This document shows, in pieces, positions 1 through 13,841 of a stretch of 38,983 nt of DNA; position 1 is the first letter of the stretch; each line of letters starts with the position of its first letter. The DNA comes from Marivirga sp. (GTDB taxonomy: Bacteria; Bacteroidota; Bacteroidia; Cytophagales; Cyclobacteriaceae): assembly GCF_024636815.1 (NCBI RefSeq), contig NZ_JAGXGF010000130.1, positions 1-38,983 on the forward strand. Reading direction: 5' to 3'. The notes under the pieces were generated by a model, which ran no database searches, had not been told where the DNA came from, and was given only the letters and a program-made list of their open reading frames with translations. The position numbers and the translations under genes are program-made.

Positions 1-654
1 AAACTCAGGTTTGTATGTTCCGCCTAATTGTATATCAAAAGGTAAATTTCTATCCTCCACTGAAAACCTGGAGGTGAAAAATCCTAAATTTTTGATTACT
101 AAGCCTAAGCTTAAATCTTCATCAGGATGGACAAATGCACCTCCTAAATCAGTCAAAATTGCAGATTGATTAAAACCACTGATTTGATTGGCTACAAATT
201 TTAAACTTGCGCCATATCGAAATACTCCATCTTCTCTGGAATGACTCACTTGAATGGCATAATCAGAAGCACTAAAATCTTCTGTAGCACCACCCGTATT
301 ATCAAATCCTTCAAACTGTCCGTAATGGAAATAGCTGATTCCAAAGCTGAAAATACCTAATTTTTCAAAATCCTGAGCATAGGTGATTTGACTGTTGTAA
401 ATATCAGCTAAATAGGGATTTAGACTAAATGAAATTTGTCCTGCCATATCCGAATTCAATAATGCAGGGTTTTGCCAGGTCATATTAACATCGCCCACAT
501 TGGAACTCACGTTTACTGTTCCCAAGCCGGCTATTCTAGCATGATTGGGTGTTTCTAAAAATTCAAAGGCACGCAGCCCACCTATTTGACCATAAGCTGT
601 TGTAATGGTCAAACAGATGGTGAAAAGGCTTGCTATGACCTTTTGCCAAATCAT
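1..654 (-). CDS. porQ: PorQ-like type IX secretion outer-membrane protein (3' part outside window)
   Basis: The minus-strand frame opens with ATG and stays open to the window edge, so only about 218 N-terminal residues are present. A signal peptide (MIWQKVIASLFTICLTITTAYG) is followed by a mature start QIGGLRAFEFLETPNHARI and then NVGDVNMTWQNPALLN. This is the pattern of the PorV/FadL-like barrel family and best fits PorQ, which with PorU/PorV/PorZ belongs to the type IX secretion attachment machinery at the outer membrane. Its ATG overlaps the lon stop codon as ATGA, so the two are probably translationally coupled. PorQ is recognised from memory of the family; another PorV-type barrel is possible. 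Confidence 0.72.
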   Translation of the reverse strand, partial: MIWQKVIASLFTICLTITTAYGQIGGLRAFEFLETPNHARIAGLGTVNVSSNVGDVNMTWQNPALLNSDMAGQISFSLNPYLADIYNSQITYAQDFEKLGIFSFGISYFHYGQFEGFDNTGGATEDFSASDYAIQVSHSREDGVFRYGASLKFVANQISGFNQSAILTDLGGAFVHPDEDLSLGLVIKNLGFFTSRFSVEDRNLPFDIQLGGTYKPEF

Positions 655-3146
655 ATAAGAGTGGCAGATACTGTTTTTTTGTTGTCATCTTCAGGAATCA
701 CAAAATTTATTGGATTCTTGATTTTTTCATTCAATAAAGCAATTTCTAATACTTCATTTACCTGATCTACAAAATGAATATTTAAGCCTTTGATGTATCT
801 TGAATCTATTTCATCTATGTCTTTCTTATTTCGCTGACATAAAATCACATCTTTGATCCCAGCTCTTCTTGCAGCTAATATTTTCTCTTTCAATCCGCCA
901 ATTGGTAAAACTTTTCCTCTCAAGGTAATTTCACCTGTCATGGCTAATCTGGATTTTACTTTTCTTTGCGTAAAAATAGAAGCCAAAGAAGTGATCATCG
1001 CTATACCAGCTGAAGGACCATCCTTTGGAACTGCTCCTGCCGGCACGTGAATATGTAAATCATAATGATCAAATACCTTATGATGAATTCCTAATTCTTC
1101 TGCATGAGAACGTAAATAGGAGAGGGCAGTCATAGCAGATTCTTTCATTACATCTCCCAGCTGACCGGAAAGTGTCAATTTGCCTTTTCCTCTGCTTAAA
1201 CTAGATTCAATGAATAAAATTTCACCACCAACTGAGGTCCAGGCTAATCCAGTTACCAAACCAGCGGTTTCATTATCCTGATATATTTCTTTTTCAAAAG
1301 CCTCGGCCCCTAAAATTCTTATAACATCTTCCGTTTCAATTTTGCTATTGAACTCTTCCTCCATCGCAATGGATTTGGCAATATTTCTCACGACTTTTCC
1401 AATCGTTCTTTCCAATCCTCTTACACCTGATTCTCTGGTGTAATCCTCAATGATTTTAGCAACTGCTTTTTTACTGATCGTAACATCCTTTGCTTTTAAA
1501 CCATGTTCCTTTTTTTGCTTAGGAATCAAGTGTTTTTTAGCGATTTCTACTTTTTCTTCTAAAGTATAACCGGTTACCTCAATTATCTCCATTCTATCTC
1601 TTAATGCAGGATGGATAGTATCTAAGGAATTGGCAGTAGCGATAAATAATACGTTTGATAAATCATATTCTACTTCCAGATAGTTATCCTGGAAGGTTTC
1701 ATTCTGCTCAGGATCTAGAACCTCTAGCAAAGCAGAAGAAGGGTCACCTCTGAAATCAGAATTCACTTTATCAATTTCATCCAAAATATAAACAGGATTG
1801 GATGATCCTGCTTTTTTCATATTCTGAACAATTTTCCCCGGCATAGCACCTACATAGGTTTTTCTATGTCCACGAATTTCTGCTTCATCATGAACACCAC
1901 CTAATGACATGCGCACATATTTTCTACCTAAGGCATCAGATATAGATTTCCCTAAAGAGGTTTTACCTACTCCCGGAGGTCCATAAAGACATAAAATAGG
2001 CGCTTTCATATCCTGCTTAAGTTTTAATACCGCAAGATATTCTATAATTCTTTCTTTTACTTTCTCTAGTCCGTAGTGGTCGCGATCTAATATTTTCTTA
2101 GCCCTTTTCAGGTCGAAATTATCTTTAGTCAATTCACCCCAAGGTAATTCTAACAACAATTCCACATAATTCATGGCGACTGGATATTCAGCCGCCTGTG
2201 GATTGATACGGGAAAGTTTGTCTATTTCCTTATCAAAATGTTTTTGTACAGTTTTTGACCAGTTTTTATCTTCAGCTTTTAATCTCAAGTTATCCAGTTC
2301 TTGATCAGGGCTATCTTGTCCCAACTCATCTTGTAAAACTCTGATTTGCTGTCTTAAGAAATAATCTCTTTGTTGCTGATCAATATCCGTATGAACCTTT
2401 TTATGAATTTCATTTTTCAGTTCCAACATCTGGATATCCTTCAGCATGAATTCCAATAGTAAAGTAGCGCGTTCTTTAGCATTGGTTTTTTCCAATAGCT
2501 TTTGTTTTTCTGCAACCTCAGAATTGATGTTGGAGGAAAGAAAATGAGTCAGAAAATTAGGGTTTTCTATATTGTCCAAGGCTACCTGAGCTTCTTGAGG
2601 AATTTCAGGATTGAGTTTTAAGATCTTACTGGCAGCATCTTTTAATGACTGAATTACCGCCTTGTTAGATTTTAGTTTAGGATCTAGTTCCTCATCATCT
2701 AATTCCTGATAAGTGGAAACTAAGAATGGATCTTCCTGAACAATCTCTTTTACTTCAAATTTTTGCTTTCCTTGAATAATGATGGTGGTATTACCATCCG
2801 GTAATACGATCATTTTCAGGATACGAGCTACAGTTCCAATGTTGTAAATATCATCCTTTCCTGGATCTTCAACCTTACTATTGGATTGTGCTACTACCCC
2901 TATTATTCTATCTCCTTTATAAGCTTTTTTTACCAGTTTAATAGATTTTTGACGACCTACAGTTATGGGGATAACAACCCCGGGGAAAAGCACAGTATTT
3001 CTGATGGGTAGGATTGGAAGCTGATCAGGTAACTCTTCCTCTCGCATACTATTTTCTTCATCTGTAGATATGAGTTGTATTAACTCACCAGTCTCATCAT
3101 CATTTATATCTGAAAAAACTTGTTGATGCTTAAATATTGAATCCAT
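651..3146 (-). CDS. lon: Lon ATP-dependent protease
   Basis: Cytosolic AAA+ serine protease that degrades misfolded and regulatory proteins. With the ATG start the protein has 831 residues, typical for bacterial Lon. The N-terminal LAN domain starts at about 42 (LPILPIRNTVLFPGVVIP). The central coiled segment has QQRDYFLRQQIRVLQDELG. The AAA+ module carries Walker A GPPGVGKT (389-396) and Walker B YILDEID (453-459). The protease domain has the catalytic dyad Ser712 (PKDGPSAG) and Lys753 (GGLKEK). The reading frame extends 8 codons upstream to a GTG (3170); the ATG is preferred because it is the usual start type and the extra residues add no family sequence. The last base pairs overlap porQ. 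All catalytic motifs are intact. Confidence 0.97.
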   Translation of the reverse strand: MDSIFKHQQVFSDINDDETGELIQLISTDEENSMREEELPDQLPILPIRNTVLFPGVVIPITVGRQKSIKLVKKAYKGDRIIGVVAQSNSKVEDPGKDDIYNIGTVARILKMIVLPDGNTTIIIQGKQKFEVKEIVQEDPFLVSTYQELDDEELDPKLKSNKAVIQSLKDAASKILKLNPEIPQEAQVALDNIENPNFLTHFLSSNINSEVAEKQKLLEKTNAKERATLLLEFMLKDIQMLELKNEIHKKVHTDIDQQQRDYFLRQQIRVLQDELGQDSPDQELDNLRLKAEDKNWSKTVQKHFDKEIDKLSRINPQAAEYPVAMNYVELLLELPWGELTKDNFDLKRAKKILDRDHYGLEKVKERIIEYLAVLKLKQDMKAPILCLYGPPGVGKTSLGKSISDALGRKYVRMSLGGVHDEAEIRGHRKTYVGAMPGKIVQNMKKAGSSNPVYILDEIDKVNSDFRGDPSSALLEVLDPEQNETFQDNYLEVEYDLSNVLFIATANSLDTIHPALRDRMEIIEVTGYTLEEKVEIAKKHLIPKQKKEHGLKAKDVTISKKAVAKIIEDYTRESGVRGLERTIGKVVRNIAKSIAMEEEFNSKIETEDVIRILGAEAFEKEIYQDNETAGLVTGLAWTSVGGEILFIESSLSRGKGKLTLSGQLGDVMKESAMTALSYLRSHAEELGIHHKVFDHYDLHIHVPAGAVPKDGPSAGIAMITSLASIFTQRKVKSRLAMTGEITLRGKVLPIGGLKEKILAARRAGIKDVILCQRNKKDIDEIDSRYIKGLNIHFVDQVNEVLEIALLNEKIKNPINFVIPEDDNKKTVSATLI

Positions 3147-3343
3147 ATATATTTTTAATATTTCAGCCACTTTGGCATTTGAAATCTCTTTTTCGTCCCA
3201 TATAATTGGGTGCTTGCCTAATTCAATTGTTATGCCAATAAAATATTGCCTAATTTTAGATTTAAATTAGATACAATTCCGACATTTTTCGGATATTAAA
3301 GTTTAATATACTGACATATTTACCGTAAAACTATCAAATTGTC

Positions 3344-5296
3344 TTGAAGCACCCTTTAAAATATTGCTTTTTAATATTGTCCCTATGTTTTTCTGTTAAT
3401 CTTTTAGGACAATATAATCCTCAGGTTGACCTTTCTAAAAACGAGATAGATCAATTATTTCCTTTTTATTTTCCTAACGTAAATCAAATCAATTTTTATG
3501 AAGATGAAAACGCGCTGACTAAAATTAATAGAGCTCAAGAAAATGAAAATTGGGAGCGCTTTAAAGATTTGTTAGAGGATTATGTGAAAAAGTTTGCCAC
3601 AGAAAATTTTTATAAAGACACTCGTTTTATCTGGCAATTAGCTAAAATGGAAGAACTCTATGGTGATTTCGAAAAAGCTAAAAGTTTATATAGACTAGCC
3701 TTAAAACACCATCAAAGTAAAATTGATCTAAGGCAGATGGAGATTTTCATGGATTCTGTTCAGCTAGAACAAACGGACGATTATGTGCCCATTGATTATT
3801 ATTATGAGTTAGTTGATTTTAGAAAATCAATCGATACTTTGGTGCCGCCAAGAGGGATATTGCTTAGCATGGGGAAACAAATAAATTCCAATATGGCAGA
3901 TTATGCCCCGGCTCTCACATTGGACAATAAAACAATGATTTTCACTTCAAAGCGAAGTTTGAGTGGTAATATATTATCCAATAATTCAAATGAGGATTTA
4001 TATATAGCGGTTCAAGAGGAAGGGATGTGGCAGGATGCTGTGCAATTGAGAGATATCAATAGTCGACATAATGAAGGTTCTGCAACTTTAAACTCAGAAG
4101 GTAATCAGATAATCTTTGCAAGATGCGGGGCTCCTGATGGCTTTGGAAATTGTGATTTATATGAAACGCATCTTCAGGAAGATAGCACGTGGAGTAAAGC
4201 GGTTAATTTAGGTGCAAATTTGAATTCTAAAGCCTGGGATTCTCATCCGACCTTATCTGTAACAGGAGATTCTCTTTTCTTTGCCTCTGATCGAATTGGT
4301 GGGTTTGGTTTATCGGACATATATTTTTCTGTAAAGGATAAAAATGGTGAATGGACAAGAGCAAGAAATCTTGGACCCGTTGTCAATACGCGGGGTAATG
4401 AAGTGAGTCCTTTTATTCATCCTCGTTTTAAAATTTTATACTTCAGTTCGAATGGCCATTTATTGAATTTCGGAGGATTTGACATTTATAAGTCCAATTC
4501 TAAATCATTTTTGTGGGATGAGCCTCAGAATATTGGACCTTTGATTAATACAGAAGGAGATGAGTATTATTTTACGATAGATTCCGAATCAGAAGATTTG
4601 TTTTATGCCGGTTCATCTTCCATGCGAAGTTATAATCTGGACCTATTTTCATTTCCACTGCCTATGGAAGCAATGCCTGGAGCAGATACAAAAGTTTCAG
4701 GGGTGGTGATTGATACAGTAAAAGGGCAGCCATTTAGGGGGATAGTATCGATTGTGGATATTGAAAACGGAATAGAAATCGCCCCAAAATTTACCCGAGA
4801 AGACGGTAGCTTTGAATTTAACCTCATTAATAATGCTAATTATGTAATGGTAGTACAATCTGATAAGCTTTTCAGAATAGAAGAAATGTTTTTTCGTTCA
4901 GGAGATACTGTTATGAATAGAAATATAGATCCTATATCCAGTAAGATTAGATTTAAATCTATTGAGTTTGAAGAAAACTCTGCAAAGCTCAGGCCCGATA
5001 TGTATAGTGATTTGGATAAAGTAGTAGATTTTCTACTTGATTACCCAGAGTTTAAGTTGAAAATATCAGGCCATACCGACTCTTCTGGTGATGAGCTACG
5101 AAATAAATCGCTATCTCAGGAAAGGGCGGATGCAATTCGAGATTACATTATTATACTGCATCCAATTGATGATGACAGAGTAGTGGCGGAAGGCTTCGGA
5201 AATAATCAACCTGTGGTTGTAGATGAAAAGACAGATGACGATAGAAGGTTGAATAGGAGAGTAGAATTTGAAATCTATCGTTCTAAGAATGAGTGA
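3344..5296 (+). CDS. PorE-like OmpA-family protein (TPR, PD40 propeller, CRD, OmpA)
   Basis: A 650-residue exported protein starting at TTG (no nearby ATG in frame), with a signal peptide ending near SVNLLG-QYNP. Domain order: TPR-like helices at about 65-125 (GDFEKAKSLYRLALKHH); a WD40-like PD40 beta-propeller at about 185-440 with repeats such as LFFASDRIGGFGLSDIYFS and ILYFSSNGHLLNFGGFDIY; a carboxypeptidase-regulatory-like sandwich at about 450-530 (VSGVVIDTVKGQPFRG); and an OmpA peptidoglycan-binding domain at 535-647 (ISGHTDSSGDE, NRRVEFEI). This order matches PorE (PG1058) of type IX secretion, thought to tie the machinery to peptidoglycan. Bacteroidetes carry several paralogues of this architecture, so the PorE name is not secure. 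It is divergent from lon-porQ, which supports a secretion role. Confidence 0.75.
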   Translation: MKHPLKYCFLILSLCFSVNLLGQYNPQVDLSKNEIDQLFPFYFPNVNQINFYEDENALTKINRAQENENWERFKDLLEDYVKKFATENFYKDTRFIWQLAKMEELYGDFEKAKSLYRLALKHHQSKIDLRQMEIFMDSVQLEQTDDYVPIDYYYELVDFRKSIDTLVPPRGILLSMGKQINSNMADYAPALTLDNKTMIFTSKRSLSGNILSNNSNEDLYIAVQEEGMWQDAVQLRDINSRHNEGSATLNSEGNQIIFARCGAPDGFGNCDLYETHLQEDSTWSKAVNLGANLNSKAWDSHPTLSVTGDSLFFASDRIGGFGLSDIYFSVKDKNGEWTRARNLGPVVNTRGNEVSPFIHPRFKILYFSSNGHLLNFGGFDIYKSNSKSFLWDEPQNIGPLINTEGDEYYFTIDSESEDLFYAGSSSMRSYNLDLFSFPLPMEAMPGADTKVSGVVIDTVKGQPFRGIVSIVDIENGIEIAPKFTREDGSFEFNLINNANYVMVVQSDKLFRIEEMFFRSGDTVMNRNIDPISSKIRFKSIEFEENSAKLRPDMYSDLDKVVDFLLDYPEFKLKISGHTDSSGDELRNKSLSQERADAIRDYIIILHPIDDDRVVAEGFGNNQPVVVDEKTDDDRRLNRRVEFEIYRSKNE

Positions 5297-5589
5297 TAGA
5301 TTAATAAAAAAATTTTACAGGAATAAAATGGTCGTTTGAACCTTTTCTTTATTTAAAAAGAAGATTTGAAATTCAAAGTATTTATATTTAATGGCAAATC
5401 AAAGATAGAAAGGCTTTAAATAGTTCGTAATGAGCTTTTCCAACTCGATTTTCTTCACTACTTTGAGTATATTAGTAAATAAACTGTTAAGGTAAGATAA
5501 TTACGAAATCGGTTGGTAAAATCATTTAGCTTTTAGCCTTAATAATTCATTTTAACTTTAAGAGTTAAAATTTTTGGATTTAATGATAT
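5297..5589. other. Intergenic stretch, no gene seen
   Basis: AT-rich spacer between the OmpA-family gene and the RsbQ-like gene. I found no reading frame with family resemblance, no strong terminator hairpin and no clear TAnnTTTG box. The promoter of the rsbQ-kinase pair must lie here, but I cannot place it. Confidence 0.4.
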
Positions 5590-6399
5590 ATGGAAAAGGA
5601 TATAATATCGAGAAATTATATTAACAGGCTTGGCAATGGTAATGAACCTATGATGTTTTCCCATGGTTACGGTTGCGATCAAAATATGTGGCGTTTTATT
5701 ACCCCAGCTTTCGAAAAAGATTATGACATTATACTTTTTGATCATGTAGGTTCAGGGAATTCTGATGAACAGGCATATAATGTTGAAAAGTACAATGACC
5801 TAAATGGTTATGCAGATGACATTATTGAAATCTGTGAAGTGCTAAAATTGGAAAAAGTTACTTATGTGGGGCATTCAGTTAGTAGCATAATTGGAATTCT
5901 GGCGGCTGCTAAACGCCCGGAATTATTCAAAAAGCTAATATTAATTGGACCATCACCCTGCTATATTAATAATGATGAATACTATGGTGGCTTTTCAAAG
6001 ATGGATATTGATGAGCTTATTGAAACGCTTGAAAGCAATTATCTTGGATGGTCGAGTTCGATAACGCCTGTAATAGCAGGAACTCCTGGTAAACCGGAAT
6101 TTTCAGAAGAATTGCATAATAGTTTTTGCAGAATGAACCCCAAGATTGCCAAACATTTCGCAAGAGTAACCTTTCTAGGGGATAATCGTGAAGATTTATC
6201 AAAGGTAACTGTACCGGCATTGATTATTCAATCCCACCCAGATATAATAGCTCCTGTAGAAGTGGGCAAATTTGTATATAAAGAGATGCCAAAAAGCAGT
6301 TATACACAACTTGAATCACCTGGACATTGTCCACATTTGACTGAACCTGAACAAACTATAAGGGCAATGAAATCTTATCTAAAAAAATTAAAAATTTGA
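5590..6399 (+). CDS. RsbQ-type alpha/beta hydrolase, probable signal receptor
   Basis: A 269-residue alpha/beta hydrolase that follows Bacillus RsbQ closely along its whole length: SHGYGCDQNMWR, ILFDHVGSGNSD, YVGHSVSSIIG, LIGPSPCYINN, EYYGGF and GHCPHL. The catalytic triad is Ser96, Asp218 and His246, all present; the oxyanion and lid regions also align. RsbQ is the bacterial relative of the plant receptors D14 and KAI2 and in Bacillus works with the PAS phosphatase RsbP in the energy-stress response, where the triad is needed. There is no signal peptide, so it acts in the cytosol. Its TGA overlaps the TTG start of the following PAS histidine kinase (TTGA). The ligand or substrate is unknown. 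Confidence 0.9.
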   Translation: MEKDIISRNYINRLGNGNEPMMFSHGYGCDQNMWRFITPAFEKDYDIILFDHVGSGNSDEQAYNVEKYNDLNGYADDIIEICEVLKLEKVTYVGHSVSSIIGILAAAKRPELFKKLILIGPSPCYINNDEYYGGFSKMDIDELIETLESNYLGWSSSITPVIAGTPGKPEFSEELHNSFCRMNPKIAKHFARVTFLGDNREDLSKVTVPALIIQSHPDIIAPVEVGKFVYKEMPKSSYTQLESPGHCPHLTEPEQTIRAMKSYLKKLKI

Positions 6400-7514
6400 A
6401 AACAGAAGATGCAATAGATCTTTATGAGAATGCCCCTTGTGGCTATTTAACGATGCAGTCGGATGGTAATATCATTAAGATTAACAGCACCTTACTTAAC
6501 TGGTTGAATTTTGAAAGAAGCGAAATTGTAAACAAGAAAGCATTCCGCGATTTTTTAAGTATGGGGGATAAAATTTACCTCGAAACGCATTTTATGTCTT
6601 TACTACAGATGCAGGGCGATGTTACTGAAATTAGTTTGGAATTAATTGGGAAAGGCACGATTAGGATTCCGACATTGATCAATGCAAAACAAATTCAACA
6701 GGATTTTAATAAGCAGCCTGTATATCTAATATCTGTTCTCGGCATTACGCATCGAAAAATGTATGAAGAGGAGTTACTAATAGCACAAAAAAAAGCTGAA
6801 GAAACTACGCATAGATTAAAAGAAATGAATAAAGTACTTGAACGTTTTGCTTATACTGCTTCACATGATTTACAAGCCCCGTTAAATGCTATTTCCGGCA
6901 TGGTACACATCCTTGAGAAAAAAAACGTTATTCAAGCCGGATCAGAAGAGGAACTTATTTTTTCAAAAATCGCAAGCAATGCCGAATTGATGAAAATGAT
7001 GATTCGTGATTTGCTGGAATATTCCAAAATAGATGAAAAATCCTCAGGTTTTGAAGCGGTTTCCCTGAATGAAGCATGCAACCTGGCCTTGGAGATTCTT
7101 GATGGTGAAGTACAAAAAAATGAAGCCATTATAAACATACCTGATTTGCCTGAAGTAATGGGTGTAAAAATCCAATTTGTTCGACTTTTCCAAAATTTAT
7201 TTTCAAATGCAATCAAATACCGGTCAGAAAAAAATCCTGTGATTACCCTTTCGTGGGAAAAGAAGGATGATTTCCACACTATCTATGTTCAAGATAATGG
7301 AATGGGATTTGAACAAGTAGACGAAAGTAAAATATTTGGTTTTATGGAACGCTTACACAGCCATGATTCCATTGCAGGAACTGGAATAGGGTTGTCTGCC
7401 TGTAAACGAATTGTGGAAAAGCACGGAGGGAGAATAGGGGTAAAATCAAATCCAAATAAAGGAAGTACATTTTATTTTACAATTTCTGTTATAGATGAAA
7501 GTAAGCATCACTAA
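6396..7514 (+). CDS. PAS-domain sensor histidine kinase paired with the RsbQ-like hydrolase
   Basis: A soluble 372-residue kinase. The N-terminal PAS domain (about 8-118) begins ENAPCGYL and carries KIYLETHFMSLLQMQGDVTE, the signature of PAS domains found beside RsbQ proteins. A short coiled coil (about 122-150) follows. The HisKA domain has the phospho-acceptor His157 (SHDLQAPL). The HATPase domain has an N box (FQNLFSNAIKY, 264-274), G1 (VQDNGMGF, 298-305) and G2 (GTGIGL, 328-333). No membrane segment is seen, so the signal is cytosolic. The TTG start overlaps the hydrolase stop, implying coupled translation. No response regulator lies next to it. In Bacillus the corresponding partner is a PP2C phosphatase rather than a kinase. 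Confidence 0.92.
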   Translation: MKTEDAIDLYENAPCGYLTMQSDGNIIKINSTLLNWLNFERSEIVNKKAFRDFLSMGDKIYLETHFMSLLQMQGDVTEISLELIGKGTIRIPTLINAKQIQQDFNKQPVYLISVLGITHRKMYEEELLIAQKKAEETTHRLKEMNKVLERFAYTASHDLQAPLNAISGMVHILEKKNVIQAGSEEELIFSKIASNAELMKMMIRDLLEYSKIDEKSSGFEAVSLNEACNLALEILDGEVQKNEAIINIPDLPEVMGVKIQFVRLFQNLFSNAIKYRSEKNPVITLSWEKKDDFHTIYVQDNGMGFEQVDESKIFGFMERLHSHDSIAGTGIGLSACKRIVEKHGGRIGVKSNPNKGSTFYFTISVIDESKHH

Positions 7515-8007
7515 GCTCATAGCAGTTAAGCCTAATTAAGGAAGCTTTCATTTTCAAATCTTTTTTTTACAAAAAAAAAAATCACCACTGCAATTTGTAG
7601 TTGAAGAAGTATAAACCTGCAAGGTGTTCAGTCTCACGATTATATTTGAATTTGTAAGTATTCTGATATTTGAAGAGTACAAGCTCAGTTTTCTCTTCAG
7701 TTTGTGATTTTGTAATAATATAATCTTCATTAAACTGAAACAACTTCTTTTGTATTACATGAGCTGTTCAGCTTATTTATGAGATTTTAACTCAAGTCGG
7801 ATAGGTGTTTAGGTTCGAAATAACCTGTGTTTTCATCAATTTATCATTATTGTTTTAGTGAGGATTTTTGCTTTTGAGCGAAGTTATGGTGTAAAAATAA
7901 ATGCTTTTCTTACATCATTCAGCTACTCCCAGCCTAAATATCTATCCAATGTTTTCCAACTATTTTGAGAACTTATCAGTCTATAGGAAAATTAACAAAA
8001 CATAAAA
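7515..8007. other. Gene-free stretch with one probable gene remnant
   Basis: About 490 AT-rich bases between the histidine kinase and the first lipoprotein gene. It holds poly-T/poly-A runs near 7560-7580 and a minus-strand open stretch that resembles the tail of an outer-membrane protein (listed separately). I see no intact gene. Near 7962-7970 there is an imperfect TA-n-n-TTG-like box that could serve the downstream gene, too weak to annotate. Confidence 0.4.
7582..7767 (-). pseudogene. Possible C-terminal remnant of an outer-membrane or secreted protein
   Basis: About 61 codons open on the minus strand with no start codon, bounded upstream by an in-frame TGA. The translation ends NRETEHLAGLYFFNYKLQW, an alternating aromatic tail like the last strands of a beta-barrel, and stops just before a poly-T tract. 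Composition looks coding, with charged and aromatic residues in a strand-like pattern. I cannot name the parent family. It may be a chance open frame. Confidence 0.28.
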
Positions 8008-8688
8008 ATGATGAAAATTAAATCTTTATTGGTAATGACTGCAATAGCTTTCGGAATGTTTGCTTGCAGCGAAGATGAAACAAATGGTGCTAGATTAAAT
8101 CTAGACTTCAATACAGTGACTACTGTAGATAATACTAGTCAAAGAGCTTTGACAAATGGTCTGATATTTACAGATGGCTTCATAACTTTAAGTGAGATAA
8201 GATTTGAAGCAGAAGCAGATGTGGATTCTTTAGAAATAGAATTTGAATTGGAGCAACAAACTGTATTAGATTTTGCAACTGGAACTACTAATCCAGATAT
8301 AAGCGGAATTTCTATTCCTGCTGGAACTTATGAAGAAGTAGAAATTGAAATTGAGCTTTTTGACGAAGGCGATGAGCCTGGAGTAGTATTGAATGGTACG
8401 TTTACTTACAATGGTGAGTCTCACCCTGTTCGTTTCGAGTTTAATTCAGGAGAAACTTTTGAAGTAGAGATGGAAGGAAATGTTGTTTTATCTGATGGTA
8501 TTAATGCTCTTGCAGAAATAACACTTGATCCTCATGTGTGGTTTGCTACTGTAACTGCCAGCCAACTTGCTGCTGCAGAAAGAGATGCAAATGGAGTTAT
8601 CGTGATTAGCGAATCCATAAATGCAGATATTTTTGATATAGCAGCTGATGGTTTAGATCTTGCAACAGATGTGGAGTTTGAGTATTAG
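8008..8688 (+). CDS. Acidic lipoprotein, DUF4382-like
   Basis: A 226-residue protein with a lipoprotein signal peptide (MMKIKSLLVMTAIAFGMFAC; the second ATG may be the real start). The residues after the lipid cysteine (SEDE) resemble the acidic export signal that sends Bacteroidetes lipoproteins to the cell surface. The mature part is strongly acidic and beta-rich, with TLSEIRFEAEADVDSLEIEF and ISIPAGTYEEVEIEIELFD. The IPAGTY step and surrounding pattern resemble DUF4382 proteins, but I am not certain of the family. No catalytic residues are evident. The downstream PepSY lipoprotein gene lies in the same direction, with a hairpin between them. Confidence 0.75.
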   Translation: MMKIKSLLVMTAIAFGMFACSEDETNGARLNLDFNTVTTVDNTSQRALTNGLIFTDGFITLSEIRFEAEADVDSLEIEFELEQQTVLDFATGTTNPDISGISIPAGTYEEVEIEIELFDEGDEPGVVLNGTFTYNGESHPVRFEFNSGETFEVEMEGNVVLSDGINALAEITLDPHVWFATVTASQLAAAERDANGVIVISESINADIFDIAADGLDLATDVEFEY

Positions 8689-8721
8689 TATTTATTTACA
8701 AATCTGATAAAGAAATTCAAG

Positions 8722-8744
8722 GGAGTGGGCTCATAGCTCACTCC
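8722..8744 (+). terminator. Hairpin after the first lipoprotein gene
   Basis: A 9-bp stem with one G.T pair (GGAGTGGGC / GCTCACTCC) and loop TCATA lies shortly after the stop codon. It is not followed by a clean T run, so it may be a weak terminator or an mRNA stabiliser. Confidence 0.4.
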
Positions 8745-8787
8745 AATTATTAGCAGTTAAATTATTTTTAAAACTTATTTATTAATT

Positions 8788-9282
8788 ATGAAAAAAGTAT
8801 CACTATATTTTTTAGCCGTATTATTTGCAGGAGTTTTTGCTTCTTGTAGCGATGATGAGGATGAAGTTTTACCGATAACAATGGAGCAAGCAACTTCAAA
8901 GGCTATGGCCGCAACATCCGGAACAGTAATTGCATCTACAACCACTACAACTGCTGCAGGGGTAACTTATTTCGAAATAGATGTAAAAACTAGCTCAGGG
9001 GCAATTATAGAGTTTGAATATTATCAAGAAGATGGATCTTTGAAAGGAATTGAAGGAGATCAGGGCCCGTTTGATTATGAAGTGGATCCGGGAATGGGTT
9101 TGATAAAATTTTCTGCAGCAAAAGATGCTGCCCTGAATGCGCAGCCTGGAGAGGTTTTGAGATGGAGTCTTAAAGAAGAGTTTCCTGATGTGTGGATCTA
9201 TACATTTGAGGTTTTGGCCAGTAACGGTGAAGAATTTGAAGTTGGCGTTAACGCCCAAACGGGAGCCGCAGAAGTAAAGTAA
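8788..9282 (+). CDS. PepSY-like surface lipoprotein
   Basis: A 164-residue lipoprotein: signal peptide MKKVSLYFLAVLFAGVFASC, then SDDEDE, which resembles the Flavobacteria-type lipoprotein export signal. After a threonine-rich linker (TTTTTAAG) come two PepSY-like units: YFEIDVKTSSGAIIEFEYYQEDGSLKGIEG, then a second unit with AAKDAALNAQPGEVLRWSL and WIYTFEVLASNGEEFEVGVNAQTG. PepSY domains are often inhibitory or binding modules. The target is unknown. A strong terminator follows, so it ends its transcription unit. Confidence 0.72.
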   Translation: MKKVSLYFLAVLFAGVFASCSDDEDEVLPITMEQATSKAMAATSGTVIASTTTTTAAGVTYFEIDVKTSSGAIIEFEYYQEDGSLKGIEGDQGPFDYEVDPGMGLIKFSAAKDAALNAQPGEVLRWSLKEEFPDVWIYTFEVLASNGEEFEVGVNAQTGAAEVK

Positions 9283-9413
9283 TGGGATTGGAAATTCTAT
9301 TGTTTAAATAACTCAATGATACATTCTAACACTAAAAGTGTTAGTGTCTCATAAAATTGATTTTGCGAAGGATTTTCAAAACTTGACAAATTTGGATTAA
9401 TTATAATCAAACT

Positions 9414-9447
9414 AAAGGCGATAATGAGTAGTTATCGCCTTTTTTTT
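9414..9447 (+). terminator. Rho-independent terminator
   Basis: A perfect 11-bp stem (AAAGGCGATAA / TTATCGCCTTT), 7-base loop, then a T run. It ends the lipoprotein unit ahead of the next gene on the same strand. Confidence 0.85.
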
Positions 9448-9461
9448 AATAAAACTCGCTT

Positions 9462-10313
9462 ATGAAAATTTTAAAAACATCATTAATTACCCTAATCTTT
9501 TTCATGATCTCAGACTTTGCTTTTGGGCAGGTGAGATTTGGAGGAAAAGTTAATGTCGGCAGTTCGTGGATCAGCTCAGGAAATTTAAAAAACAATCTGG
9601 AATTCCAAATGAATAGAGATATTGATATAAAGGATTGGGATGTTAGTTACAGACCTGGAACAATGGTTGGCGTTGGCGCTGTCGCTAACTATTTATTGAC
9701 CGATAAATTGTCATTGCAAGGAGAGTTGTCTTTCAATTATCAGAAATCTAATATAAAGATCAGTTATTTAGAGGATACTAGAGATCAAGCAGGTACTGGT
9801 ACTATTGAAACGATCGATTCCGAAGCTAAGATAATATCTACGCGTTTATCTGTACCGGTTACATTGCATTATTCTCTCGGATTGGATAAGCCGGTACTTT
9901 TAGCTGGACTTGAGGCCAACTTTTTAAATACTCCTCAGATAGAATCTATTGAATCTGAAGTAGTGAGAGATTTTGATAATGGTACTTTAATTGCAGAACA
10001 AAAAGACGCAGAAGCCATCACTGGAGATTTGGACATCTTCAATACCGTACGGTTTAATTTTTTTTTGGGAGCTGCAAAATCGGTAGAATTGGCCGGTAAA
10101 GAAATATCAATACAACTAACTTATCATTTGCCGCTAAGCGCATCAGAAATGTATAGTTTTAGTAATAGGGCAGCATTTGATAATAATACCTTTAAAAACA
10201 ATGAGATCTTTGGTGCTTTAGGAAAAATAGATGCAGAATTAGATGCTCCTGCTTATCCTCTAAATGATTTTAGAATGCACTATCTTGATTTTTCTATCAC
10301 ATATTTGTTTTAG
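9462..10313 (+). CDS. Outer-membrane beta-barrel protein (PorT-like fold family)
   Basis: A 283-residue exported protein. The signal peptide ends near SDFAFG-QVRFGGKVNVG. The mature part consists of alternating strands typical of the outer-membrane beta-barrel family PF13568: FGGKVNVGSSWIS, LSLQGELSFNYQKS, LSVPVTLHYSLG and a last strand YLDFSITYLF that ends in phenylalanine. Length and layout suit an 8-10 strand barrel. The specific function is unknown. Its start lies only 14 bases after the preceding T run, so its promoter must overlap the terminator region. It is convergent with rlmD across a shared hairpin. Confidence 0.72.
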   Translation: MKILKTSLITLIFFMISDFAFGQVRFGGKVNVGSSWISSGNLKNNLEFQMNRDIDIKDWDVSYRPGTMVGVGAVANYLLTDKLSLQGELSFNYQKSNIKISYLEDTRDQAGTGTIETIDSEAKIISTRLSVPVTLHYSLGLDKPVLLAGLEANFLNTPQIESIESEVVRDFDNGTLIAEQKDAEAITGDLDIFNTVRFNFFLGAAKSVELAGKEISIQLTYHLPLSASEMYSFSNRAAFDNNTFKNNEIFGALGKIDAELDAPAYPLNDFRMHYLDFSITYLF

Positions 10314-10356
10314 GGGCAAAAAATGATTTGCATCTTCTAAGAAGATTTAACTTTAT

Positions 10357-10402
10357 AAAAAAAAGGACTGGAAACATATACTTATGTATCAGTCCTTTTT
10401 TT
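10357..10402. terminator. Bidirectional terminator between convergent genes
   Basis: A long hairpin: GGACTG / CAGTCC continued inward by an 8-bp arm with one mismatch around a TACT loop. It has an A run on the left and a T run on the right, so it can serve both the barrel gene (+) and rlmD (-). Confidence 0.82.
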
Positions 10403-10442
10403 ATTATAACCTAGCTAAATTTTAATTTATACTTCTTTATTT

Positions 10443-11843
10443 TTATTTCAACTCTAGTAACACCACATTTTCCACATGATGTGTTTGCGGAAACATATCA
10501 ACCGGTTGAACGGATGTAACTTTATATTTCTCATCCAATAAAGCCAAATCTCTTGCTTGTGTGGCTGGATTACAGCTTACATATACTATTTTATTTGCAC
10601 TTATATTCAGAAGAGTTTTAATCACATCAGGATGCATTCCTGCTCTTGGCGGATCGGTGATGATAACATCTGCTTTGCCATGCTGAGCTAAAAACTCATC
10701 ATTAAAGACATCCTTCATATCTCCTGCAAAGAAATCGGTATTCTCTATCTTATTGAGTTGAGAATTGACTTTGGCATCCTCAATGGCTTCAGGAACATAC
10801 TCCACACCAATCACTTTTTTGGCACTTTTAGCAATGAAATTGGCAATAGTTCCTGTTCCGGTATAGAGATCGTACACAATTTCATCTCCTTTCAAATCAG
10901 CAAAATTTCTGGCTACTTTATACAATTCATAAGCTTGATCTGAATTGGTTTGATAAAAAGATTTTGGGCCAATCTTAAATTGTAAACCTTCCATTTCCTC
11001 TATAATGTGATCTTTTCCATAGAATACCTGCACATCCAAATCATGGAAAGTTTCATTCCCTTTTTGATTTAAAATGTAAAGCAAGGAAGTAAGTTCAGGG
11101 AAGTTCTCTTTTATATGATTTAGCATCATGCTCAACCATTCTTCGTTTTCTTCTGCAACCTGCAGGATGACCATAGTCTGACCAGTGGTTGAAGTCCGGA
11201 TGATTAAGTTTCGTAGAAAGCCAACTTGCTTAATTAAATTGAAGTAGGTAATCTTATTGTCTTTTGCAAAGCGATCAACTGAATTACGAATAGCATTGGA
11301 AGGATCTGCTTGCAAATAGCATTTCTCAATTTGAACAATCTTATCAAATCTTTTAGGAATATGAAAACCTAAAGCATCTGATTCAAATTCTTTACCTGAT
11401 TCTATTTCTTCTGTGGTCAACCATCTGTTATTAGAGAAGGTGTACTCCATTTTATTCCTGTAGAAAGTAGTGTTTTTAGAGCCGAGAATAGGTTTGATTT
11501 CAGGTAAGTCAACTTTCGCAATTCGCTCTAAAGAATCTTTCACTTGCTCGCTTTTAAAGCCCAGTTGGTCTTCATAGCTTAAATGCTGCCATTTGCATCC
11601 GCCACAAACACCGTAATGACTGCAGAAAGGCTCTATTCTAAGATCTGATTTTTTATGAAATTTAATAGCACTTCCTTCCAGGAAGCTTTTCTTTTTTTTA
11701 TGTACTCTAACGTCAATGATGTCACCGGGAGCAGTTCCCGCAACAAATACTACTTTATCGTTGTAATAGCCTAAAGCTTTACCTTCTGAAGCTATTTTTT
11801 CAATCTCTAATTCCTTTATAATAGGGTGTGGTTTTCTTGCCAT
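10443..11843 (-). CDS. rlmD: 23S rRNA (uracil-C5)-methyltransferase, RlmD/TrmA family
   Basis: SAM-dependent RNA uracil-C5 methyltransferase, most likely for U1939 of 23S rRNA. From the ATG it has 466 residues. A TRAM domain (about 8-65, IASEGKALGYYNDKVVFV) precedes the iron-sulfur cysteines C74, C80, C83 (CSHYGVCGGC) and C175. The Rossmann domain has the SAM loop DLYTGTGT (325-332), TDPPRAGMHP, and the catalytic cysteine C424 in VYVSCNPATQ. The frame also has a TTG three codons upstream, but that TTG lies inside a TAATTTTG promoter box, so the ATG is chosen. Family membership is sure; the exact uridine modified is not visible from sequence. Confidence 0.92.
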   Translation of the reverse strand: MARKPHPIIKELEIEKIASEGKALGYYNDKVVFVAGTAPGDIIDVRVHKKKKSFLEGSAIKFHKKSDLRIEPFCSHYGVCGGCKWQHLSYEDQLGFKSEQVKDSLERIAKVDLPEIKPILGSKNTTFYRNKMEYTFSNNRWLTTEEIESGKEFESDALGFHIPKRFDKIVQIEKCYLQADPSNAIRNSVDRFAKDNKITYFNLIKQVGFLRNLIIRTSTTGQTMVILQVAEENEEWLSMMLNHIKENFPELTSLLYILNQKGNETFHDLDVQVFYGKDHIIEEMEGLQFKIGPKSFYQTNSDQAYELYKVARNFADLKGDEIVYDLYTGTGTIANFIAKSAKKVIGVEYVPEAIEDAKVNSQLNKIENTDFFAGDMKDVFNDEFLAQHGKADVIITDPPRAGMHPDVIKTLLNISANKIVYVSCNPATQARDLALLDEKYKVTSVQPVDMFPQTHHVENVVLLELK

Positions 11844-11849
11844 AGCCTG

Positions 11850-11857
11850 CAAAATTA
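11850..11857 (-). promoter_or_regulatory. Probable -7 box of rlmD
   Basis: TAATTTTG on the minus strand fits the Bacteroidetes TAnnTTTG box and stands 6 bases before the ATG, implying a leaderless or nearly leaderless mRNA. No good -33 TTTG is seen. Confidence 0.4.
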
Positions 11858-11963
11858 GCCTAATATTTTTGAAGGGAAAAGCTTGAATACAGAATTAATG
11901 ATAGATGCTCATGTCAGACATTGAGAATGTTTGACATTTTTGCAGTGCGGTTTGACAGTTGCA

Positions 11964-13082: not shown

Positions 13083-13155
13083 GACTCGCTAGCTCAGCTG
13101 GTAGAGCACATCCCTTTTAAGGATGGGGTCTTGGGTTCGAACCCCAAGCGGGTCA
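13083..13155 (+). tRNA. tRNA-Lys (anticodon TTT), copy 1
   Basis: A complete 73-base cloverleaf: acceptor GACTCGC / GCGGGTC (one T.G pair), D arm GCTC / GAGC, anticodon arm CATCC-CTTTTAA-GGATG with TTT at 13116-13118, T arm TTGGG-TTCGAAC-CCCAA, discriminator A. CCA is not encoded. Identical to the copy at 13605. Confidence 0.96.
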
Positions 13156-13333
13156 CATATAATAAAATTGTATTCACAATTTTAAATTCTTCAATTAAAT
13201 GAATTGAAGAATAGTTTTTTTTAATATTTGATTTGCTATTAGACTTATTTAGGGAGTAGTTTTTCCGATTAAGCAAATAGAGATGCTTCTGGTTTTTAAC
13301 CCAAAGCTGTAAATCAATTAGCAAAATAAATAT

Positions 13334-13410
13334 GACTCGTTAGTTCAACTGGTAGAGCATCCCGACTTTAGAAGTCGGGAGGGTCCTGAGTTCGAACCCC
13401 AAGCGGGTCA
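13334..13410 (+). pseudogene. Degenerate or unusual tRNA-Lys-like sequence 2 (loop TTTAGAA)
   Basis: Both acceptor strands (GACTCGT / GCGGGTC) and the TTCGAAC T loop are kept. The anticodon arm is a 7-bp palindrome TCCCGAC / GTCGGGA instead of the normal 5 bp, making the unit 77 bases. Its loop TTTAGAA has U33 and would read TAG as anticodon (Leu codon CTA). The T stem CTGAG / CCCAA has two mismatches. The best preserved of the three odd copies; probably a pseudogene, but expression is not excluded. Confidence 0.6.
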
Positions 13411-13460
13411 CATAATTTTTAAATTGTGAAAACAATTTTGTCTAACAAATTATTTAAGAA

Positions 13461-13490
13461 GCTCTGATAAAATGATCAGAGCATTTTTTT
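13461..13490 (+). terminator. Rho-independent terminator inside the tRNA array
   Basis: Perfect 8-bp stem GCTCTGAT / ATCAGAGC, 6-base loop, then A and a run of T. It follows tRNA-like sequence 2 and separates it from the next unit. Confidence 0.8.
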
Positions 13491-13502
13491 TCTTTAAGAT
13501 TT

Positions 13503-13576
13503 GACTCGCTAGCTCAGCTGGTAGAGCATCCCGATTGAATGGATCGGGAGGGTCTTGGGTTCGACCCAAGCTATAT
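13503..13576 (+). pseudogene. Degenerate tRNA-Lys-like sequence 3
   Basis: The 5' half is identical to tRNA-Lys through the D arm. The anticodon arm is TCCCGAT / ATCGGGA around TGAATGG (no U33). The T loop is shortened to TTCGA, two bases fewer than normal, and the 3' acceptor strand is replaced by unrelated sequence. A decayed copy. Confidence 0.75.
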
Positions 13577-13604
13577 AGCATTACATTACTTATACAAAAA
13601 ATAT

Positions 13605-13677
13605 GACTCGCTAGCTCAGCTGGTAGAGCACATCCCTTTTAAGGATGGGGTCTTGGGTTCGAACCCCAAGCGGGTCA
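13605..13677 (+). tRNA. tRNA-Lys (anticodon TTT), copy 2
   Basis: Base-for-base the same as the copy at 13083: 73 bases, loop CTTTTAA with anticodon TTT at 13638-13640, all stems paired, CCA not encoded. Confidence 0.96.
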
Positions 13678-13684
13678 CTATCAT

Positions 13685-13718
13685 AAAACCTATCTGTTTA
13701 AAAATGGATAGGTTTTTT
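13685..13718 (+). terminator. Rho-independent terminator after tRNA-Lys copy 2
   Basis: Stem AAAACCTATC / GATAGGTTTT with a 12-base loop and a T run, directly behind the tRNA. Confidence 0.78.
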
Positions 13719-13751
13719 AGTTTTAGCATGTATATTTGCTATAAGTATTTA

Positions 13752-13835
13752 GCGCACGTGGTGAAATTGGTAGACACGCCACCTTGAGGGGGTGGTGCCT
13801 TAACTGGTGTGGAAGTTCGAATCTTCTCGTGCGCA
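13752..13835 (+). tRNA. tRNA-Leu (anticodon GAG)
   Basis: A class II tRNA of 84 bases: acceptor GCGCACG / CGTGCGC, anticodon arm CCACC-TTGAGGG-GGTGG with GAG at 13786-13788, a long variable arm, a TTCGAAT T loop and discriminator A. CCA is not encoded. A strong terminator follows. Confidence 0.95.
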
Positions 13836-13841
13836 CAAATG

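Follow-up and report, generated by a model that had tools for sequence, protein, structure and literature searches.

A stretch of Marivirga sp. DNA carries the gene for an alpha/beta hydrolase immediately ahead of the gene for a histidine kinase, which raises the question of whether the two products work together as one sensing device or merely lie side by side. The window, by which we mean the whole stretch of DNA analyzed, is 38,983 nucleotides long. From the evidence below we consider it probable (roughly 0.8) that the pair forms a bipartite sensing module of the RsbQ-PAS type, with a histidine kinase as its output, in which RsbQ would dock directly on the PAS domain of the kinase.

Organization of the gene pair

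The gene structure and domain anatomy of the pair are given in Table 1. Both ORFs lie on the same strand and overlap by four bases, TTGA at 6396-6399, in which the hydrolase stop codon TGA (6397-6399) is laid over the kinase start codon TTG (6396-6398). Of 75 related pairs, which were taken from the best 80 of at least 580 relatives, 18 have a 4-base NTGA overlap as the arrangement given by the nearest start. Promoters of the Bacteroidetes type follow the pattern TTTG-N17-22-TANNTTTG; the whole window has 2 matches to it against 3.15 expected, none of them near the pair. Sigma-70-like sites in the window numbered 24, with 22.4 expected. The genome from which the window comes is 88% complete. 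Elsewhere in the window, four tRNA genes (Lys, Leu, Lys, Leu) were seen at 13083-13836, with the anticodon TTT common to both Lys genes.

Table 1. Coordinates of the gene pair, its domains and surroundings, and of related loci (window positions unless a locus is named)
Feature	Position	Strand	Basis or remark
RsbQ-type alpha/beta hydrolase, 269 aa, triad S96/D218/H246	5590..6399	+	phmmer to 1wom, triad alignment, tree
Histidine kinase, PAS - helical linker - HisKA - HATPase_c, 372 aa, soluble, TTG start	6396..7514	+	Pfam, AlphaFold2, nearest structure 8f71
RsbP-type PAS domain (APCGYL ... KIYLETH ... TEI ... IP)	6411..6770	+	published positions, profile A2
Predicted signal helix into DHp helix 1, phospho-acceptor His of ASHDLQAP	6744..6920	+	AlphaFold2 helix, HisKA match 149-214
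Accessory segment: RsbQ, PAS kinase and three further genes	5288..10442		absent from same-genus G349
Lipoprotein-like protein, 226 aa	8008-8688
PepSY protein	8788-9282
Outer-membrane barrel-like protein	9462-10313
Predicted STAS-fold protein after RsbQ	L079:10859-11263, L091:10862-11266, L120:10799-11245
STAS-family paralog, second RsbQ and 213-aa PAS protein in a row	L218:1948-4064 (G552)

Identity of the hydrolase

Judged by sequence, the hydrolase is a true RsbQ. With phmmer it matched B. subtilis RsbQ (1wom) at E=4.2e-94, with 318 bits over 262 residues, and KAI2/D14 structures at 3e-50 to 5e-59 (174-203 bits); among the best 60 of 242 matches, the first alpha/beta hydrolase beyond RsbQ, KAI2 and D14 came at 8e-18. 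The catalytic triad S96, D218 and H246 is aligned with the same residues of 1wom and is invariant across 16 aligned RsbQs of the phylum sample. The genome has a single RsbQ ortholog, the second-best hydrolase matching an RsbQ query at 6.5e-9.

A phylogeny of the hydrolase, calculated as a quick tree of 95 rows with two very distant outgroup rows, long-branch warnings and no D14 row, places the window RsbQ among bacterial RsbQs, in a 12-row clade (support 97) made up of seven Cyclobacteriaceae, one Chitinophagaceae bin, one Flavobacteriaceae, one Balneolota, one genome of the window's family and the window itself. B. subtilis RsbQ is placed elsewhere (support 88), and a branch with support 100 parts the window RsbQ from two other hydrolases of the same genome. 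The three plant KAI2s form a clade of their own (support 100); its branch is long and its position among the bacterial RsbQs uncertain. Membership of the window hydrolase in a plant KAI2/D14 clade was considered and rejected, as it groups with RsbQs of Bacteroidota and Balneolota. The sequence-only reading had called the hydrolase an RsbQ with a complete triad whose stop codon overlaps the kinase start, and all of this is borne out. It had also related RsbQ to D14 and KAI2; the homology is real, but the window protein lies outside the clade of the three KAI2s. The plant receptors and the window RsbQ have a homologous fold and the triad in common and differ around the catalytic histidine, where the window has GHCPHL and the three KAI2s GHLPQL. 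According to one report, KAI2 possibly arose by transfer of a bacterial RsbQ (PMC10504578).

The kinase and its PAS domain

Pfam matches in the kinase were to HATPase_c (9.5e-22), HisKA (5e-12) and, just over the cut-off, PAS_9 (3.4e-6). The PAS domain is N-terminal at residues 14-113 and is followed by HisKA at 149-214. An AlphaFold2 model of the monomer (residue numbering starting at 6399; mean pLDDT 85.2, pTM 0.61) predicts the PAS domain, then a single unbroken helix at 116-174 that bears the phospho-acceptor histidine, and then the DHp and ATPase domains. The linker ahead of the output is thus one helix in this model; a coiled-coil of at least 21 residues in this place is a trait of the published module (PMC3183031). 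No transmembrane segment was found in the kinase, the highest 19-residue Kyte-Doolittle mean being 1.02. In sequence, the closest structure to the kinase domain is 8f71 (E=2.3e-34), which a Foldseek search identified as the RpBphP2 bacteriophytochrome kinase domain, with 33-34% identity to the window kinase.

Nine residues have been described as marking the RsbP-PAS domains that occur beside RsbQ: C10, L13, L48, Q53, F55, C56, Y59, E72 and P86 (PMC3183031). At these positions, assigned by spacing, the window PAS has C, L, L, K, Y, L, H, E and P. It agrees at 8 or 9 of the 9, depending on the class given to C56, in a scoring in which we assigned the residue classes ourselves, RsbP itself was not in the alignment and the control set of 3 rows is too few. 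In the published work on B. subtilis, alanine at F55 or Y59 broke the interaction with RsbQ in yeast two-hybrid assays, and F55A did so in pull-downs as well (PMC3183031); the equivalents in the window PAS are Y61 and H65. The window was compared with its relatives in a set of 89 partners (the window, 75 loci from the best 80 of at least 580 relatives and 13 survey loci) in which three genomes are counted twice (L044/SL026, L045/SL027 and L059/SL030). The equivalent of P62 is S in the window and P in 85 of the 89, and that of C56 is L in the window and in 3 of the 89 including it, the position being mostly Y, F or H. PMC3183031 states that no RsbP-PAS domain of the 2011 set has a C-terminal DIT motif. 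However, 18 of the 89 partners (15 distinct genomes), all of Bacteroidota or Balneolota, end in D[IVM]T, so that the missing DIT does not hold as a feature of the clade; the window PAS has GIT. Against profile A2, described below and including the window sequence, the window PAS scored E=2.1e-54, and at E<=1e-3 with a PAS query it is the only RsbP-type PAS domain of its genome. The earlier claims of a soluble histidine kinase in the place of RsbP, and of a PAS domain of the same kind as RsbP's, agree with these results.

Pairing of RsbQ with the PAS domain

Public genomes were scanned for RsbQ loci, and the best 80 of at least 580 relatives (at least 594 stretches) were taken; these are the closest relatives and not a random sample, and some are from metagenome bins. 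The search for adjacent RsbQ and PAS genes that the sequence-only reading had proposed found an RsbP-type PAS gene directly downstream of RsbQ in 75 of these 80 loci, in ten phyla by record title. The remaining five comprise three with no PAS and a STAS-fold protein instead (L079, L091, L120), one with no PAS gene found (L093) and one at a contig end (L121).

The two genes also occur together. RsbQ was found at E<=1e-50 in 16 of 296 genomes of the phylum sample. A PAS profile, A2, was built from the partners of 12 RsbQ-positive genomes and at E<=2e-41 matched 16 domains in 15 genomes, that is, in 15 of the 16 genomes with RsbQ and in 0 of the 280 without it. Because the profile was built from them, the strong matches in the 12 genomes are partly by construction; the fair test is given by the genomes outside profile building (G130, G166 and G104), all of which were detected and all of which have RsbQ. 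Weaker matches to the profile, 14 in 13 RsbQ-negative genomes, ranged from 2.6e-25 to 7e-15, and 12 of the 14 lie in ORFs of 726-2544 aa. Seventeen RsbQ matches were found outside the window genome, with the PAS adjacent in 14; in G104 the pair is apparently split across contig ends. RsbQ was seen with no RsbP-type PAS gene beside it in L036 (G158), in L041 (a second copy in G166) and in L093. Since these and the Hymenobacteraceae RsbQs described below stand without PAS, RsbQ does not strictly require a PAS partner. Next to the RsbQ pair of G273, a divergent PAS-ATPase protein (L028:10080-11177) has the APCGY motif and no HisKA match.

Evolutionary distances point the same way. Over n=62 pairs, the distance correlation was r=0.587 between RsbQ and the PAS domain and 0.314 between RsbQ and the HATPase domain of the same polypeptides, with partial correlations of 0.54 and 0.15, respectively. 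Under taxon resampling the difference between the two correlations was 0.17 to 0.36, and only this PAS-versus-ATPase difference is informative, because shared ancestry feeds all distance correlations.

The adjacency, the co-occurrence and this co-divergence lead us to reject chance adjacency. In the window itself the pairing is not a matter of chance, because the only RsbQ ortholog and the only such PAS domain found in the genome lie side by side. It could be argued that the hydrolase is a metabolic esterase that is co-transcribed with the kinase by accident, given that hydrolases and kinases are both common and that a few RsbQs (L036, L041, L093) stand alone. We consider this very improbable in view of the pairing across ten phyla, the distribution of the PAS domain between genomes with and without RsbQ, the co-divergence of RsbQ with the PAS rather than the ATPase domain, and the published B. 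subtilis genetics (PMC3183031).

Output types and a candidate response regulator

Partner types were listed for the 75 paired loci among the best 80 of at least 580 relatives, with domain classes taken from our own profiles and motifs and Pfam run on 7 of the 75 and 13 survey partners. Kinases make up 63 of the outputs, 39 plain and 24 with a receiver of their own; there are 10 PPM phosphatases, 1 GGDEF protein and 1 unresolved case. Two of the plain kinases (L083, L092) have a DHp match only. The 10 phosphatase partners are all from Actinomycetota, and two Actinomycetota records carry kinases. The partner types follow the published pattern in which Gram-negatives use kinases and Gram-positives phosphatases.

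The sequence-only reading had suggested a search for orphan response regulators. None is encoded adjacent to the pair in the window. The 75 loci, several of which end at contig ends, were scanned with a receiver (REC) profile that derives from three hybrid kinases and could overlook some receivers; seven of them (L047, L052, L056, L072, L094, L096 and L114), all of Bacteroidota, have a stand-alone REC gene of 130-146 aa directly downstream of the kinase and in the same orientation. In L086 and L095 a REC gene is directly upstream of RsbQ. Because of the seven downstream REC genes and the bacteriophytochrome-type kinase domain, we expect the regulator of the window kinase to be of the CheY/Rcp1 type. 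In L047, whose RsbQ is 68% identical to that of the window, the RsbQ pair lies between a multi-PAS kinase (read as two ORFs) and the REC gene. When this receiver was used to search the window genome, the best match was C159:3168-3584 at 52% identity (E=6e-46), the next being at 1.5e-24. Contig C159 has a multi-PAS kinase followed by a receiver, in the same order as in L047, without the RsbQ pair. C159:3168-3584 is our best candidate for the regulator of the window kinase, and a doubtful one, because it already follows a multi-PAS kinase of its own. The same contig encodes a REC-PAS protein (L135:3614-4636), possibly a phosphotransfer protein, whose end on visual inspection looks like a DHp helix (QSHMVRAPL) with no ATPase domain behind it; L047:6132-6788 encodes a shorter protein of similar kind.

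The kinase may instead have no stand-alone regulator as its partner, and act as a phosphatase, be a pseudokinase, or feed the receiver of a hybrid kinase. This would fit the lack of a REC gene next to the pair in the window, the own receivers of the 24 hybrid partners, and a REC scan of the window genome in which some of the 41 matches fall in ORFs of 900-1600 aa. The presence of both HisKA and ATPase domains and the stand-alone REC genes behind the kinase in seven relatives speak against it, and we regard it as rather unlikely.

RsbQ beside a STAS-fold protein in Hymenobacteraceae

Outside the window, the three Hymenobacteraceae loci L079, L091 and L120 have RsbQ without PAS, followed by a protein of 134-143 aa (Table 1). 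Further pairs of this kind were seen in L188-L193, also of Hymenobacteraceae. The L091 protein has matches in 57 of 241 genomes of the order. Its six closest matches (E<=3.5e-44) all adjoin RsbQ, L192 being identical to L120 across the aligned region, whereas 27 of 28 more distant matches examined have no RsbQ in their stretch. The one that does is a 44%-identical STAS-family copy in G552. It precedes a second RsbQ by 204 bases, and behind this RsbQ lies a 213-aa protein in which an RsbP-type PAS but no ATPase domain was matched.

A structure model of the L091 protein (mean pLDDT 96.2) resembled RsbS (6jhk) in a fold search, with Z 14.1 and 2.1 A over 112 residues, and SpoIIAA complexes with Z 12.7-13.4, on a scale on which the presumably unrelated S41 proteases reached up to Z 10. 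Foldseek gave SpoIIAA (1h4y) as best match, at E=3.2e-5. The STAS fold is the fold of RsbV and RsbS. The Pfam SpoIIAA-like family matched 14 of 32 members weakly (best 1.3e-4; L091 only 0.09), and a sequence search of these proteins against the PDB returned antibody chains only, at E>=0.5.

The STAS-paired RsbQs group with that of L055, a Hymenobacteraceae RsbQ paired with a PAS kinase (support 90), which suggests a swap of partners within this lineage. The outputs given for the RsbQ-PAS module in PMC3183031 are PPM, histidine kinase or GGDEF, and going by the modeled fold the RsbQ-STAS pairing looks like an output type beyond these three. It is the most novel thing found in this work. Taken together, the observations may mean that RsbQ is a receptor that can be plugged into unlike effectors and that PAS is not essential to it: the Hymenobacteraceae lineage would have dropped the PAS kinase, with RsbQ gating the STAS protein directly as a fourth output, and the window pair would feed the orphan Rcp1-type regulator C159:3168-3584. 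We put this combined proposal at about even odds.

The gene pair lies in an accessory segment

Window positions 1-5287 and 10443-11899 have aligned counterparts, 81-82% identical, in a same-genus genome, G349 (L185), where these stretches end 9 bases apart. The intervening 5.1-kb segment is thus a clean presence/absence segment; relative to L185:13810-13820 it sits between two convergent genes, and its GC content of 0.32-0.36 is like that of its flanks. Its presence may reflect an insertion in the window genome or a deletion in G349, both of which fit. G349 has no RsbQ, and within the family RsbQ was found in 13 of 98 genomes, the window genome included; the gene pair is accessory, and most of the family lacks it. 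Among the cultivable Cyclobacteriaceae that have the pair are Algoriphagus alkaliphilus and Cyclobacterium jeungdonense. In two family members with the pair (L186, L187), the DNA match to the window covers the pair alone and not the flanks. The three other genes of the segment had no match at E<=1e-4 among the 5291 ORFs of the 80 RsbQ loci (the best 80 of at least 580), so that no link between them and the pair emerges. The PepSY gene had no match in G349 or G339, in a search without a positive control.

Proposed mechanism and relation to known systems

In the proposed mechanism, cytosolic RsbQ would take a small hydrophobic ligand into the triad pocket and perhaps cleave it; a butenolide-like compound is our best guess. 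RsbQ would then dock on the F-alpha helix of the PAS domain in the kinase dimer, and the resulting change would travel down the continuous signal helix and reset autokinase or phosphatase activity. Phosphate would pass to a stand-alone CheY/Rcp1-type response regulator encoded elsewhere, for which C159:3168-3584 is a low-confidence candidate. Docking, taken by analogy from B. subtilis, is common to the published receptor and enzyme models; the ligand and the regulator are less sure than the module itself. A 2024 paper reportedly described butenolide perception by RsbQ.

In Model 1 of Nadezhdin et al., RsbQ acts as an enzyme and passes its product by direct contact to the pocket of the PAS domain, which is then the sensor (PMC3183031). 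This is a version of the same module and competes only with the idea of RsbQ as the receptor. The fully conserved triad favors it, while the kinship with KAI2 and D14 and the Hymenobacteraceae RsbQ-STAS pairs without PAS lean to RsbQ as the sensor; the data fit both models, and we hold the enzyme model to be possible and the less likely of the two.

The RsbQ-PAS module as such is mostly not new. Nadezhdin, Brody and Price (2011, PMC3183031) already define it from 45 RsbQ/RsbP-PAS pairs and name histidine kinases as the Gram-negative output. The window pair shares with their module the gene order (RsbQ immediately upstream), the triad, the N-terminal PAS, the predicted helical linker and the HisKA/HATPase output; it differs in that their RsbP-PAS domains lack the DIT end found among the partners here, the window itself having GIT. 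The sequence-only reading is partly supported: it was right on RsbQ, on the class of PAS and on their pairing, the kinase in RsbP's place, which it had put forward, was already in print, and its phosphorelay in a gliding bacterium would be conjecture. The terms Bacteroidetes, Flavobact-, Cytophag-, Algoriphagus, Marivirga and Microscilla are absent from the main text of that paper, the species names in its Figure 2 being unreadable. We found no other work on the RsbQ-histidine-kinase form, judging by titles and the beginnings of abstracts in lists that were in some cases partial. With the RsbQ-RsbP pair of the B. subtilis sigma-B energy-stress pathway, the window pair has the PAS class and the operon order in common; its output is a histidine kinase, in contrast to the PPM phosphatase of RsbP.

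RsbQ is the bacterial kin of the receptors for strigolactones and karrikins. A soluble pair of RsbQ and kinase lends itself to testing, since autophosphorylation can be followed in vitro in the presence or absence of RsbQ and with candidate ligands added; the phosphatase-sigma-B route is less direct. The regulator candidate and the STAS-paired variant each offer a concrete test of RsbQ itself as a receptor.
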